DNA from: Lentzea sp. NEAU-D7
GTDB lineage: Bacteria; Actinomycetota; Actinomycetes; Mycobacteriales; Pseudonocardiaceae
NCBI RefSeq assembly: GCF_026242055.1
Contig: NZ_JAPJDL010000003.1
Coordinates: forward strand, 506,796-570,795
Reading direction: 5' to 3'
Length of the DNA: 64,000 nt
The notes beneath the pieces are model-generated. The model saw only the letters and a list, made by a program, of their open reading frames with translations, was not told where the DNA came from and ran no database searches. Numbering within the stretch: position 1 is the stretch's first letter; every line of letters begins with the position of its first letter. Shown piece by piece: positions 2,478 through 63,125 of the stretch. Both the position numbers and the translations under genes were made by a program.

Positions 2478-3134
2478 ATGCGAGTAGTCATAGCCGGCGG
2501 ACACGGGCAGATCGCGCTGCTTCTCGAGCAGCTGCTGGCCACCCGAGGAGACGCCGCCACAGCGCTGGTCCGCAACCCCGATCACTTCACCGATGTGCAG
2601 GAAGCCGGAGCCGTTCCGGTGTTGTGCGACCTGGAGTCCGCTGATCTGGACTCGGTCGCCGCGTATTTGAACGGTGCTGATGCGGCCGTGTTCGCCGCTG
2701 GTGCCGGCGCCGGATCTGGTGCCGCCCGCAAGGACACCGTGGACTACGGGGCCGCTGCGCTCTTCGCCTCTGCCTGCGTCGAGGCCGGGGTGCGGCGGTT
2801 CCTGCAGGTCTCCACCGTCGGCATCGAGTCCGCGGACTCGCCGTCGGTGGATCCGGAGTTCGCCGTGTACCTGAAGGCCAAGAAGCTGGCCGAGGACGAC
2901 CTGAAGCCGCGTGATCTCGACTGGACGATCCTGCGGCCGGGGCCTCTGGTGAACGACGCGCCGACCGGGCTGGTCACGCTGGCCGAGCCCCGGTTGCCGC
3001 GGGCGTCCGTCACCCGCGCGGACGTCGCCGCCGTGCTGGCCGAACTGCTCAACGCGCCCAACACGATCGGCAAGACGCTGGAAGTGGTGAACGGCGAGAC
3101 GCCGGTCGCCGACGCCGTTCGCGTGATTCTTTAG
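2478..3134 (+). CDS. NAD(P)-binding SDR-like protein (atypical SDR, NAD(P)H-binding family)
   Basis: 218 aa. It begins MRVVIAGGHGQIALLLEQLL, an N-terminal GGxGxI dinucleotide-binding loop, followed by DLESADLDSVAAYLNGADAAVFAAG and RFLQVSTVGIES. The motif YLKAKKLAEDDLKPRDLDWT is typical of the YwnB/BVR-B-like atypical SDR group, where Y-x3-K stands in that place. The length fits the family. The likely role is reduction or sensing of a small molecule using NAD(P)H; the substrate is unknown. Its stop codon TAG is also the first three bases of the palindromic element at 3132-3296. Confidence 0.8.
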   Translation: MRVVIAGGHGQIALLLEQLLATRGDAATALVRNPDHFTDVQEAGAVPVLCDLESADLDSVAAYLNGADAAVFAAGAGAGSGAARKDTVDYGAAALFASACVEAGVRRFLQVSTVGIESADSPSVDPEFAVYLKAKKLAEDDLKPRDLDWTILRPGPLVNDAPTGLVTLAEPRLPRASVTRADVAAVLAELLNAPNTIGKTLEVVNGETPVADAVRVIL

Positions 3135-3296
3135 TGGTGTGGCTCGGAAGGTTGCCGGGGGAATTCGCGGTCAGACGGGTGCATCGTGGTGCCGCCCCCA
3201 CGTCCTCATACTGGATGTATGGGGGCGTGGGGGCGGTGCCGCGAGGCGCCCTGCTGAGCGTGGATTACCTCGCCAACGTTCCGAGTCGCGCCACTA
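3132..3296. repeat. 165-bp palindromic intergenic element, copy A
   Basis: Two 80-base arms flank a 5-base loop TGGAT; 61 of 80 positions pair exactly and many mismatches are G.T. The central stem CCGCCCCCACG/CGTGGGGGCGG is perfect, followed by CATAC/GTATG at the loop. The element begins with the TAG stop of the gene to the left and ends with the CTA (TAG on the other strand) stop of the gene to the right. It fills the whole gap between two convergent genes. A second copy of identical length and design lies at 62961-63125. Confidence 0.85.
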
Positions 3297-4574
3297 ACCG
3301 AGGACGCGGTCCAGGTAGGGGTTGGTGAACGTCCTGCCTGGATCGACCTCGTCGCGCACCCGCAGGAAGTCGTCGAAGTGCGGGTACAGCGGGCGGAGCT
3401 CCGTCGCGGTCAGGTCGTGCATCTTGCCCCAGTGCGGGCGGCCGCCGACCGACGCGGCGATGCTCGCGTAAGCGTCGAAGAAGGCCTTGTACTGCATGCC
3501 GAGTGCTTGGTGCATCGAGATGTACGCGGTGTCGCGGCCGTTCGCCGTGGACAGCCAGATGTCGTCGGCCTGGGCGACGCGCACCTCGCACGGGACGATG
3601 AGGTGGTCGCGCTCTCCCAGCCTGGCGGCCACGGCCCGGAGCTCGCCGATCACGTCCATCAGGGTCTCGCGGGGGATCGAGAACTCGGTCTCCACGAACC
3701 GCACGCGCCTGGGCGTCACGAAGACGTTGTGCGAGTAGTCCGAATAGGACCGCTCGGAGATCAGCGAGCCGCAGAGTTCGTTGAGGCGCCTGGTGTAGCG
3801 GGGGAAGGTCCTGGCGACCTTGGTGACGGCGCCGAACGCGGCGTTCTCCATGACCTCGTACTCCCAGGCCTGGCGGAGCTTGGAGAGCGGGCGCGCCGGC
3901 TCGGTGATCCTGTTGTTGCGCTTGAGGATCACGCGGTCGGAGTGGGTGAACCAGTGGAACTCGACGTGGTCCTCGACGGCGCAGAGGTCGTCGAACTGCT
4001 CCAGCACGGCGTCGAGCCGGCCGGGGGACTCCTGGGCCTGCAGCACGAAGGACGGCACGCAGCGCAGGGTCAGGGTGCTGATGACGCCGAGGGCGCCCAG
4101 GCCCACGCGTGCCGCGTTGAAGAGGTCCGGGCGTTCGGTCCGCGAGCAGGTGACCACGGAGCCGTCGGCGAGGACCAGTTCCAGCGCCTCGATGGCGGTG
4201 GCCAGGACGCCGAGCTTCGCACCGGTGCCGTGGGTCGAGGTCGAGACCGCGCCGGCGACGGTCTGGGCGTCGATGTCGCCCAGGTTCGGCATCGCGAGGC
4301 CCAGGCGGTGGAGGTCCGCGTTGAAGACGCGCAGGGGAGTGCCGGAACGGACGGTGACCAGACCGGTTTCCGCGTCCGCGCGTACGATCCCGGTCCATCG
4401 GTCTAGGTCGAGAGCGGTTTCCGGGGCTACGGCGATGTCGTTGAACGAGTGGCCGCTGCCTCGAGCCCGGACTCGGCCACCGGAGAGGACGGCCGCGGCG
4501 ATCTCGTCCGTGCTGGACGGGTGGACGACGCGCGCAGGCGTGCACGAAGCCGTTTTAGCCCAGTTCGTCCACAC
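3294..4574 (-). CDS. FAD-linked aldonolactone oxidase (D-arabinono-1,4-lactone oxidase family)
   Basis: 426 aa. The N-terminal FAD-binding domain carries RVRARGSGHSFNDIA, in which the histidine is the usual covalent FAD site, and VAGAVSTSTHGTGAKLG. The C-terminal ALO domain carries the signature GGRPHWGKMHDLTATELRP. It closely resembles mycobacterial L-gulono-1,4-lactone dehydrogenase, which also begins with a WxNW stretch. The start GTG at 4574 has GGAGG five bases upstream; a GTG at 4586 lacks a site. It is divergent from the PLP enzyme at 4661, a pairing I remember from other actinomycetes. The electron acceptor is not deducible. Confidence 0.88.
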   Translation of the reverse strand: MWTNWAKTASCTPARVVHPSSTDEIAAAVLSGGRVRARGSGHSFNDIAVAPETALDLDRWTGIVRADAETGLVTVRSGTPLRVFNADLHRLGLAMPNLGDIDAQTVAGAVSTSTHGTGAKLGVLATAIEALELVLADGSVVTCSRTERPDLFNAARVGLGALGVISTLTLRCVPSFVLQAQESPGRLDAVLEQFDDLCAVEDHVEFHWFTHSDRVILKRNNRITEPARPLSKLRQAWEYEVMENAAFGAVTKVARTFPRYTRRLNELCGSLISERSYSDYSHNVFVTPRRVRFVETEFSIPRETLMDVIGELRAVAARLGERDHLIVPCEVRVAQADDIWLSTANGRDTAYISMHQALGMQYKAFFDAYASIAASVGGRPHWGKMHDLTATELRPLYPHFDDFLRVRDEVDPGRTFTNPYLDRVLG

Positions 4575-4614
4575 GCGAACCTCCACGAGAGAGTGTGACC
4601 TGCGAGTAACGTAA

Positions 4615-61952: not shown

Positions 61953-62963
61953 ATGCGGACACTCATCGGGGCTCTGGTGATCGCACTGCTCGCACCAGGC
62001 ATCGCCCAGGCACACCACAGGGACTTCGACGTCCAGGCACACCGCGGCGGCATCGGGCTGACCGTCGAGAGCACGCTCAAGGCGTTCGGCAAGGCGCTCG
62101 AACTCGGTGTGACGACGCTGGAGCTCGACCTGCAGATCACCAGGGACGGCCGCGAGGTCATCACCCACGACCGCAGGACGAACCCGGCGAAGTGCCTCGA
62201 CACCGCGCCCGCGTTCCCCGGCGACCCCGAGTTCCCCTACGCCGGCAAGTACGTGAAGGACCTGACGTTCGCCCAGGTGCGGACGCTCGACTGCGGCAGC
62301 ACGAGGTGGTCGCAGTACCCGGACCAGGAACTCTCGCCGGGCGCCCGCATGCCCACCCTGGCCGAGCTCTTCGACCTCGCGCGCGAGCACCGCGCGTGGG
62401 GCGTCCGCTTCAACATCGAGACCAAGGTCGAGGCCGCGGCTCCGCACGAGACCGCGCCGCGTGAGCAGTTCGTGCAGCGCGCCGTCCGCGAGATCCGCCG
62501 CTCGGGCTTCATGCCGAACATCACCGTCCAGTCCTTCGACTGGGGAACCCTGATGCGGTTGCGCGAGGTCGAGCCCCGCATCCCGCTCGTGGCGCTGACG
62601 CAGCCGGAGATGCTGCGGCCCGGCTCGCCGTGGACGGGCGGCCTCGAGCTCGCCGACTTCGGCGGCAGCGTCGCGAAGGCGGTGAAGAGCTTCGGCGCCA
62701 AGGCCCTGTCGCCGGTGCACGGCAACCCGCAGAACGGCAAGGTCGGCGACCCCGGCTACGTCCCGTTCACCACCAGGGCACTCGTGGCGGACGCCCACCG
62801 CCACGGGCTGAAGGTGATCCCGTGGACGGTGAACGACCCGGCGACGATGCACAAGCTGATCGACGACGGGGTGGACGGCATCATCACCGACTACCCGGAC
62901 CGCTTGCGCACCGTCGCGAAGGAGCGCGGGTTCAAGCTCCCCAAGCGCTATCCGAAGCGCTAG
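61953..62963 (+). CDS. Secreted glycerophosphodiester phosphodiesterase (GDPD)
   Basis: 336 aa. The signal peptide MRTLIGALVIALLAPGIAQA is followed by FDVQAHRGGIGLTVESTLKA, with catalytic His-Arg, LELDLQITRDGREVITHDRR (E-x-D and H) and PWTVNDPATMHKLIDDGVDG with IITDYPDRL. It hydrolyses glycerophosphodiesters, or possibly teichoic-acid-like polymers, outside the cell. TTGGAGGA lies just before the ATG. Its stop TAG is the first three bases of palindromic element B. Confidence 0.93.
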   Translation: MRTLIGALVIALLAPGIAQAHHRDFDVQAHRGGIGLTVESTLKAFGKALELGVTTLELDLQITRDGREVITHDRRTNPAKCLDTAPAFPGDPEFPYAGKYVKDLTFAQVRTLDCGSTRWSQYPDQELSPGARMPTLAELFDLAREHRAWGVRFNIETKVEAAAPHETAPREQFVQRAVREIRRSGFMPNITVQSFDWGTLMRLREVEPRIPLVALTQPEMLRPGSPWTGGLELADFGGSVAKAVKSFGAKALSPVHGNPQNGKVGDPGYVPFTTRALVADAHRHGLKVIPWTVNDPATMHKLIDDGVDGIITDYPDRLRTVAKERGFKLPKRYPKR

Positions 62964-63125
62964 GTCGTGGCCCGGAAGTTCGTCCGGTGGCAGGCGCGGG
63001 CGAGAGACCCGGAGACGGCGCCGCCGCGATGCCCTCATACCGGGCGTATTCGGGCGTCGCGGCGGTGTCGTCTCCGGGGCCCTCGGCCGCCACTGCCGCC
63101 CGAGGGACTTCCGGGACACGGCCTA
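62961..63125. repeat. 165-bp palindromic intergenic element, copy B
   Basis: Two 80-base arms flank loop CGGGC; 64 of 80 positions pair. The outermost 20 bp (from CTAG, one base outside) are terminal inverted repeats: CTAGGTCGTGGCCCGGAAGT against CTAGGCCGTGTCCCGGAAGT, two mismatches. The centre CCGCCGCGATG/CGTCGCGGCGG corresponds to the centre of copy A with paired C-to-G and G-to-C changes. The TAG of the GDPD gene and the TAG (as CTA) of the convergent SpaA-domain gene are its two ends. Confidence 0.85.

Follow-up and report, generated by a model that had tools for sequence, protein, structure and literature searches.

A 165-bp hairpin at the stop codons of two convergent Lentzea genes is most probably a non-autonomous IS630-type mobile element

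What fills the gap between two convergent genes near one end of the window, and why does it take the form of a single palindrome? The window, that is, the whole stretch of 64,000 nucleotides analyzed here, lies on contig C23 of the Lentzea sp. NEAU-D7 genome (9.3 Mb in 43 contigs, G000). An earlier note on this DNA had described a palindrome with 80-base arms and a 5-base loop occupying the whole gap, and this layout was found with its coordinates exact. The element, copy A hereafter, comprises the entire 159-bp intergenic gap together with the two stop codons that border it; it opens with the TAG of the + strand gene (3132–3134) and closes with the CTA at 3294–3296, the stop of the − strand gene. 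Genes near the copies were called by codon-usage scoring of our own, for which the window served as training sequence, and not taken from annotation. The features at this locus are as follows.

2478..3134, + strand: NAD(P)H-binding / NmrA-like gene ending at copy A; start by our own codon-usage scoring
3132..3296, + strand (the strand with the best RNA fold): copy A, 165-bp hairpin, most probably a MITE, loop TGGAT
3132..3133, no strand: left TA of the target, within the TAG stop of the + strand gene, as judged from the empty sites L130, L132, L144, L147, and L149
3132..3157, + strand: left 26 bases of copy A, similar to an IS630-type terminal inverted repeat; 20/26 match to the ends of the C24 element described below, the best of both A ends
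3212..3216, + strand: apical loop TGGAT, of the YGGNN class
3271..3296, − strand: right 26 bases of copy A, inverted; same comparison with the ends of the C24 IS630-type element
3295..3296, no strand: right TA of the target, within the stop of the − strand gene, as judged from the same empty sites at junction A
3294..4586, − strand: convergent gene, FAD-binding, D-arabinono-1,4-lactone oxidase-like, ending at copy A

Among the 80 pairs formed by the arms of copy A, 61 were Watson-Crick, 12 were G·T, none was A·C, and 7 were other mismatches. The palindrome had been called near-perfect, which is right for RNA of the + strand (73/80 pairs) and too strong for the DNA (61/80 complementary). The predicted RNA fold was −141.6 kcal/mol (z = −16.0) on the + strand and −93.7 kcal/mol (z = −8.4) on the − strand, and none of 200 shuffles equaled either value. 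A search of the whole window against Rfam 15 returned only two tRNAs at or above the gathering score and assigned copy A to no family; the matches around copy A were all sub-threshold, and the best of them, to the model of an animal microRNA precursor, scored 54.6 bits where the cut-off is 168.

The second element of equal length that had been reported in the window was also recovered. This copy B has the same length and layout as copy A, and its arms form 64 Watson-Crick, 6 G·T, 1 A·C, and 9 other pairs.

61953..62963, + strand: glycerophosphodiester phosphodiesterase-like (GDPD) gene ending at copy B
62961..63125, + strand: copy B, hairpin of 165 bp with loop CGGGC, probably a MITE of a second family; site empty in L406, L407, L409, L410, and L412
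63123..63947, − strand: SpaA-domain gene ending at copy B, its frame open to the window end

Further copies, which the earlier note had proposed to seek, were found in large numbers in the same genome and in relatives. For copy A, the genome holds two more 165-bp copies at 99% identity (G000:C12:127398-127562 and C17:89586-89750) together with diverged or partial copies, while B-like sequence occurs at 14 places including copy B itself (85–100% over at least 118 bases). Matches to A were present in all 24 genomes of the genus (E <= 1e-6) and matches to B in 13 of the 24 (E <= 1e-30). A 19-base end pattern, searched in one genome per GTDB species, retrieved 59 stretches, 58 of them from Lentzea and one from Nocardioides. 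In a family-level sample of 249 Pseudonocardiaceae genomes, at least 22 genomes from at least 5 of 46 genera matched at E <= 1e-8; because this search scored three candidates per genome, the counts outside Lentzea are lower bounds. These are dispersed short copies that carry no transposase gene. Two palindromes of about 50 bp in the same genome (L055, G000:C23:182367-182418; L049, G000:C1 near 146317) consist of little beyond both A ends and are either deletion derivatives or minimal elements.

For the counts below, 132 unique A copies were retained, 127 of which had alignable length. This set excludes matches aligned over less than about 120 bases, copies truncated at the edge of a locus, further instances of one element with identical 25-bp flanks, and the junction and background loci L129–L152 (except L131) and L209–L212. 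The copies were drawn mostly from the top of the match lists, and the sample is therefore biased toward A-like sequences.

The history of copy A can be followed at the same junction in relatives. When the oxidase locus was compared among 24 genomes, an element match was found in the NEAU-D7 genome and in L131 (93% identical), and no element match was found at this junction in 22 of the 23 relatives. The junction letters were compared for 11 relatives (L130, L131, L132, L134, L136, L141, L144–L147, and L149). In five of them (L130, L132, L144, L147, and L149), the two genes overlap by 4 bp and share their stops in CTAG (four) or CTAA (one). The filled junction corresponds to this 4-bp overlap with the element placed in its TA and a TA on both sides; the element has G as its first and C as its last base, so that each gene regains a TAG stop. 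Target TAs on both sides of the element were thus seen both in the comparison of filled with empty junctions and in the end triplets of the copies. At copy B, where 24 loci were examined, five relatives (L406, L407, L409, L410, and L412) had the same right-hand gene and no element match, and in these the two genes meet at their stop codons. The proposal of a mobile palindrome is therefore borne out by the many copies, the empty sites, and the TA duplication. Copies A and B are members of two families of mobile elements rather than two copies of one conserved host terminator.

Three other relatives (L141, L145, and L146) had another spacer sequence at junction A, so not every palindrome-like spacer there is an A element, and in L134 and L136 the left gene was not found at the junction. 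In L145 and L146, a different short sequence, containing GAGAGTAC/GTACTCTC as inverted parts, takes the place of the A element. Since no element match was found at junction A in 22 of the 23 relatives, we do not take a host-conserved non-coding RNA or terminator as the main explanation.

A candidate for the source of mobility was sought in the ends of the element. The NEAU-D7 genome contains a 1.09-kb element (C24:91444-92532) with CTAG at both ends and inverted ends, whose frame matches DDE_3 and HTH_32 (the latter slightly below its cut-off). This C24 element is thus of IS630 type and probably degenerate; its transposase frame matched 99 of 146 profile positions and extends beyond the end of the element. 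DDE_3 had only two matches in the genome, one with an internal stop codon, and an intact IS630-type partner was not found there. Up to 20 of 26 positions agreed between the ends of copy A and those of the C24 element. When 834 TAG sites from 144 kb were compared with the C24 ends, only the two ends of copy A scored above the background maximum of 17/26, and copy A thus has terminal inverted repeats in common with an IS630-family element. The match was 19/26 for a related element from a different genome of the genus (L264). The ends of copy B reached at most 14/26 in ungapped comparison, which is not convincing, and a one-gap comparison by eye gave a better-looking match. DDE_3 had no match (E <= 1e-5) in 5 of the 24 genus genomes, yet A-like matches were present in these. 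In six loci (L102, L103, L109, L112, L113, and L122), IS630-type elements of 1.07–1.21 kb lie flush in CTAG at the edges of A copies or fragments; IS630-type elements therefore use these CTAG sites, and the palindrome ends at these loci are landing sites for insertion sequences.

Because of the dispersed copies, the empty sites with TA duplication, and the IS630-like ends, copy A is, on sequence evidence, most probably a non-autonomous IS630-type MITE of Lentzea whose whole 165 bp form one hairpin and which moved into the TA of CTAG/YTAR. It resembles the IS630 insertion sequences in its TA duplication, its preference for TA in CTAG, and its ends, and differs from them in carrying no transposase gene. 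A 1991 paper cited in PMC2170065, going by its title, reportedly found that an IS630-associated transposon transposes preferentially to the TA in CTAG. The most likely course of events would be that an IS630-family transposase, acting in trans, binds the element at its ends, excises it, and inserts it at a TA within CTAG. In vitro work on ISY100, as described in a passage of PMC2170065, found TA-duplicating cut-and-paste by an IS630-family transposase. At the present locus, the insertion would have hit the 4-bp stop overlap, where the TA was duplicated and TAG re-formed with the G that begins each end. Neither gene would then have lost its stop or had it moved, with a hairpin spacer splitting the formerly overlapping genes. 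Such an insertion at the shared stops of overlapping convergent genes would leave both proteins intact and add a hairpin to both messages.

The target also bears on why such elements lie between convergent genes. Of the 264 ends of the 132 A copies, 210 read CTA and 18 TTA. CTAG is rare in this genome, with 46 sites observed in 144 kb (the window plus L209–L212) against 415 expected from base composition. Fourteen of these sites were stop codons (two common to convergent genes), 9 lay inside genes, and 23 lay elsewhere between genes. The TAG of the element coincided exactly with a flanking stop on at least one side in 96 of the 132 A copies and on both sides in 26. Coincidence with at least one stop exceeded that of background CTAG sites (p = 9.5e-7), as did the two-sided cases (p = 0.017); because the background included the sites at the ends of copy B, the test is slightly conservative. 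Insertions in genes or promoters may have been lost more often, and those at stop codons would survive better. In the same 144 kb, 5 of 22 convergent gene pairs overlapped by exactly 4 bp.

CTAG targeting and tolerance at stop codons thus largely explain why the elements lie between convergent genes, with no need for a role in termination. The alternative, which the earlier note had offered beside a mobile palindrome as a reason for the place of the hairpin, is a host-selected bidirectional terminator, in which the hairpin is kept because it ends transcription of both convergent genes. A strong hairpin on both strands exactly at the gene ends fits this explanation, as does the fact that 64 of the 132 A copies lie between convergent genes. 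A search for terminators of the stem-loop plus T run type, however, gave no site at window positions 2900–3500 (shuffle mean 0.4), and most relatives have no element match at the same junction. Before a single gene end, moreover, family A was oriented evenly (33 versus 37), although its strands fold very differently; the corresponding numbers for family B were 16 and 7. Finally, once a stop was given, the two-sided share was not enriched over background CTAG (p = 0.51). We regard the bidirectional terminator as possible but rather unlikely, and it was not upheld as the reason for the position of copy A. Termination may occur as a side effect of copy A. By analogy, side effects on host messages may include termination or RNase III cleavage, the latter having been proposed for NEMIS in a passage of PMC2229807.

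Returning to copy A as an IS630-type MITE, the fold itself requires explanation. The stem covariation between A and B described earlier (two C-to-G swaps with compensating partners, and a G·T pair) is present in the sequences. Within family A, 28 copies (27 distinct, chosen from the 132) showed double changes in 17 of 74 pairs of a structure without the six consensus mismatches, and 96.7% of cells were paired; none of 500 shuffles reached either the double-change count or the paired share. Across families, 20 core sequences (8 from A, 6 from B, five from four other Pseudonocardiaceae genera, and one from Nocardioides) showed double changes in 27 of 37 pairs and 92.9% paired cells. Again, none of 500 shuffles reached either value, and slid registers gave 35–55% paired cells. 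The apical loop was of the YGGNN class in 149 of 169 copies, with a 5-nt loop imposed. Read on the strand carrying this loop, all eight representative lineages had more G·U than A·C (sum 65:9); these lineages are not fully independent, as several share the inner stem.

The strand bias differed between shared and private states. Flank comparison gave 111 insertion sites for family A. Single-base departures from Watson-Crick pairing seen in one copy only comprised 10 G·U and 18 A·C, whereas those shared by at least two sites comprised 26 G·U and 3 A·C (Fisher p = 2.8e-5 for shared versus private). Departures to other mismatches were not rarer when shared (23/53 versus 24/52 private), so the two classes differ in the contrast between wobble and A·C and not in pairing in general. 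Private states should not be read as recent ones, because they include 14 compensated double changes. Family B showed a weaker bias (30 of 37 copies used), with 150 G·U and 60 A·C cells and single-base states of 8:3 when shared and 12:7 when private; in single B copies, the ratio of G·U to A·C ranged from 13:3 to 1:1. Strand-specific cytosine deamination was considered as the source of G·T pairs. The shared states comprised 16 C>T, 10 A>G, no G>A, and 3 T>C, with the commonest state taken as reference so that the direction of change is not fixed; since C>T and A>G both contribute, the fold is favored over deamination.

These counts bear again on the terminator explanation. The one-copy departures without wobble bias speak against it. 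In eight pairs of elements at the same site in different species, differences between Watson-Crick and G·U outnumbered those between Watson-Crick and A·C by 45 to 6, which could mean constraint after insertion. In four of these pairs, however, the element was less identical (82–87%) than the matched flanks (89–95%), and repeated insertion into the same CTAG is therefore as likely as post-insertion constraint. Two of the eight pairs share only one flank.

Covariation may also arise without selection. Correction of imperfect palindromes by template switching is a known process, and replication template switching of this kind could have produced the double changes, which are indeed frequent both within A and across families. 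It would, however, erase G·T pairs and other mismatches, both of which are still seen throughout the A copies. It also predicts no one-strand G·T excess, as opposed to the 26:3 among shared states and the 65:9 in eight lineages. We consider template switching an improbable account of the covariation. In a further alternative, an HUH (Y1) transposase of the type known from IS200/IS605 or REPINs would move the element as a folded single strand. This would suit a strand-biased hairpin with a conserved loop and the compensatory changes also described for REPINs (in a passage of PMC3116915), but is very improbable given the TA on both sides, the IS630-like ends, and the lack of Y1 transposase matches in the NEAU-D7 genome and in 14 of the 24 genus genomes, many of which have A-like copies (the other 10 had matches).

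The claim that the fold itself appears selected thus stands as far as covariation and strand bias across many copies are concerned, but not in its premise, as A and B are not copies of one host element. The pattern suggests selection on the hairpin of one strand (+, with the YGGNN loop), as RNA or single-stranded DNA, in the lineages that spread, and we read it as selection on the folded + strand that is little visible in single copies. As the strand bias would imply, the single-strand hairpin may play some part in propagation in one of these two forms. A stronger version, in which the folded hairpin of one strand with its conserved YGGNN tip is the obligatory working form, recognized for instance by a transposase, by a factor of the host, or in a step that depends on RNA, is tentative, and we hold it to be unlikely. 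If it applied, the element would be a folded-strand mobile element using IS630-like ends, and ERIC-type hairpin MITEs might share the principle. The strand bias makes the statement that MITEs fold into hairpins testable as to which strand, which molecule, and which step.

The closest known elements are RUP and ERIC, and the features tested for an IS630-type MITE were found in copy A. RUP of pneumococcus, which is associated with IS630-Spn1, is likewise short and non-coding, with IS630-like ends and a TA target, and is over-represented between convergent genes, as described in parts of PMC3049150 and PMC2229807. By layout and description, on which the comparison was based, it differs in its length (107 bp versus 165 bp) and from the strong strand bias and frequent stop-codon insertion seen here. 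ERIC (also IRU or RU-1) is described in a passage of PMC2229807 as a 127-bp hairpin MITE with TA at its termini; it belongs to another host group, and its helix is less continuous. In layout and folding, the aspects compared, two ERIC copies of E. coli K-12 (L427 and L428) also folded better on one strand (−53.6 versus −43.2 and −55.3 versus −41.7 kcal/mol), and most of their G·U pairs were on the better-folding strand (4 versus 1 and 3 versus 0). By analogy, strand bias may be general among hairpin MITEs, for which two ERIC copies are too few to say. Two further pneumococcal elements were set beside copy A by description, both from parts of PMC3049150: in 36 annotated genes, the 3′ stop codon is provided by BOX, and SPRITE, located close to the ends of genes, resembles a terminator and has a U-rich tract, whereas copy A gave no terminator match. 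REPINs are mobile hairpins with compensatory changes according to part of PMC3116915, but are associated with the RAYT transposase, whereas Y1_Tnp had no match in the NEAU-D7 genome.

Among the titles listed by searches of open-access literature, with most subscription journals outside their scope, none concerned these elements of Lentzea. A passage of PMC10969869 describes small MITEs as having received less study than any other mobile elements of bacteria and archaea. In the present family, empty sites are clear, an IS630 partner is plausible, and the targets are frequently stop codons. Two points look unusual: the insertion into a stop overlap with both stops restored, and a fold that is much stronger on one strand.

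Two minor observations concern family B. A hairpin in Nocardioides sp. SLBN-35, from another order of Actinomycetes (L390:4266-4432), has the same end pattern and a family B center (CATAC-CGGGC-GTATT). In addition, a repeat of about 46.7 kb in the NEAU-D7 genome (C23:569756-616476, from window position 62961) recurs at C39:315077-361797 (L429–L434), with 17,925 bases at 99.994% identity and 28,476 at 100% (321 bases between them fell outside the comparison). In both contigs, the repeat starts where copy B has its left end; the repeat then extends to the end of C23 and stops approximately 1.9 kb before the end of C39. Copy B is the inner edge of this long repeat, which could be a terminal inverted repeat of a linear chromosome with a crossover inside the mobile palindrome, or another large duplication.
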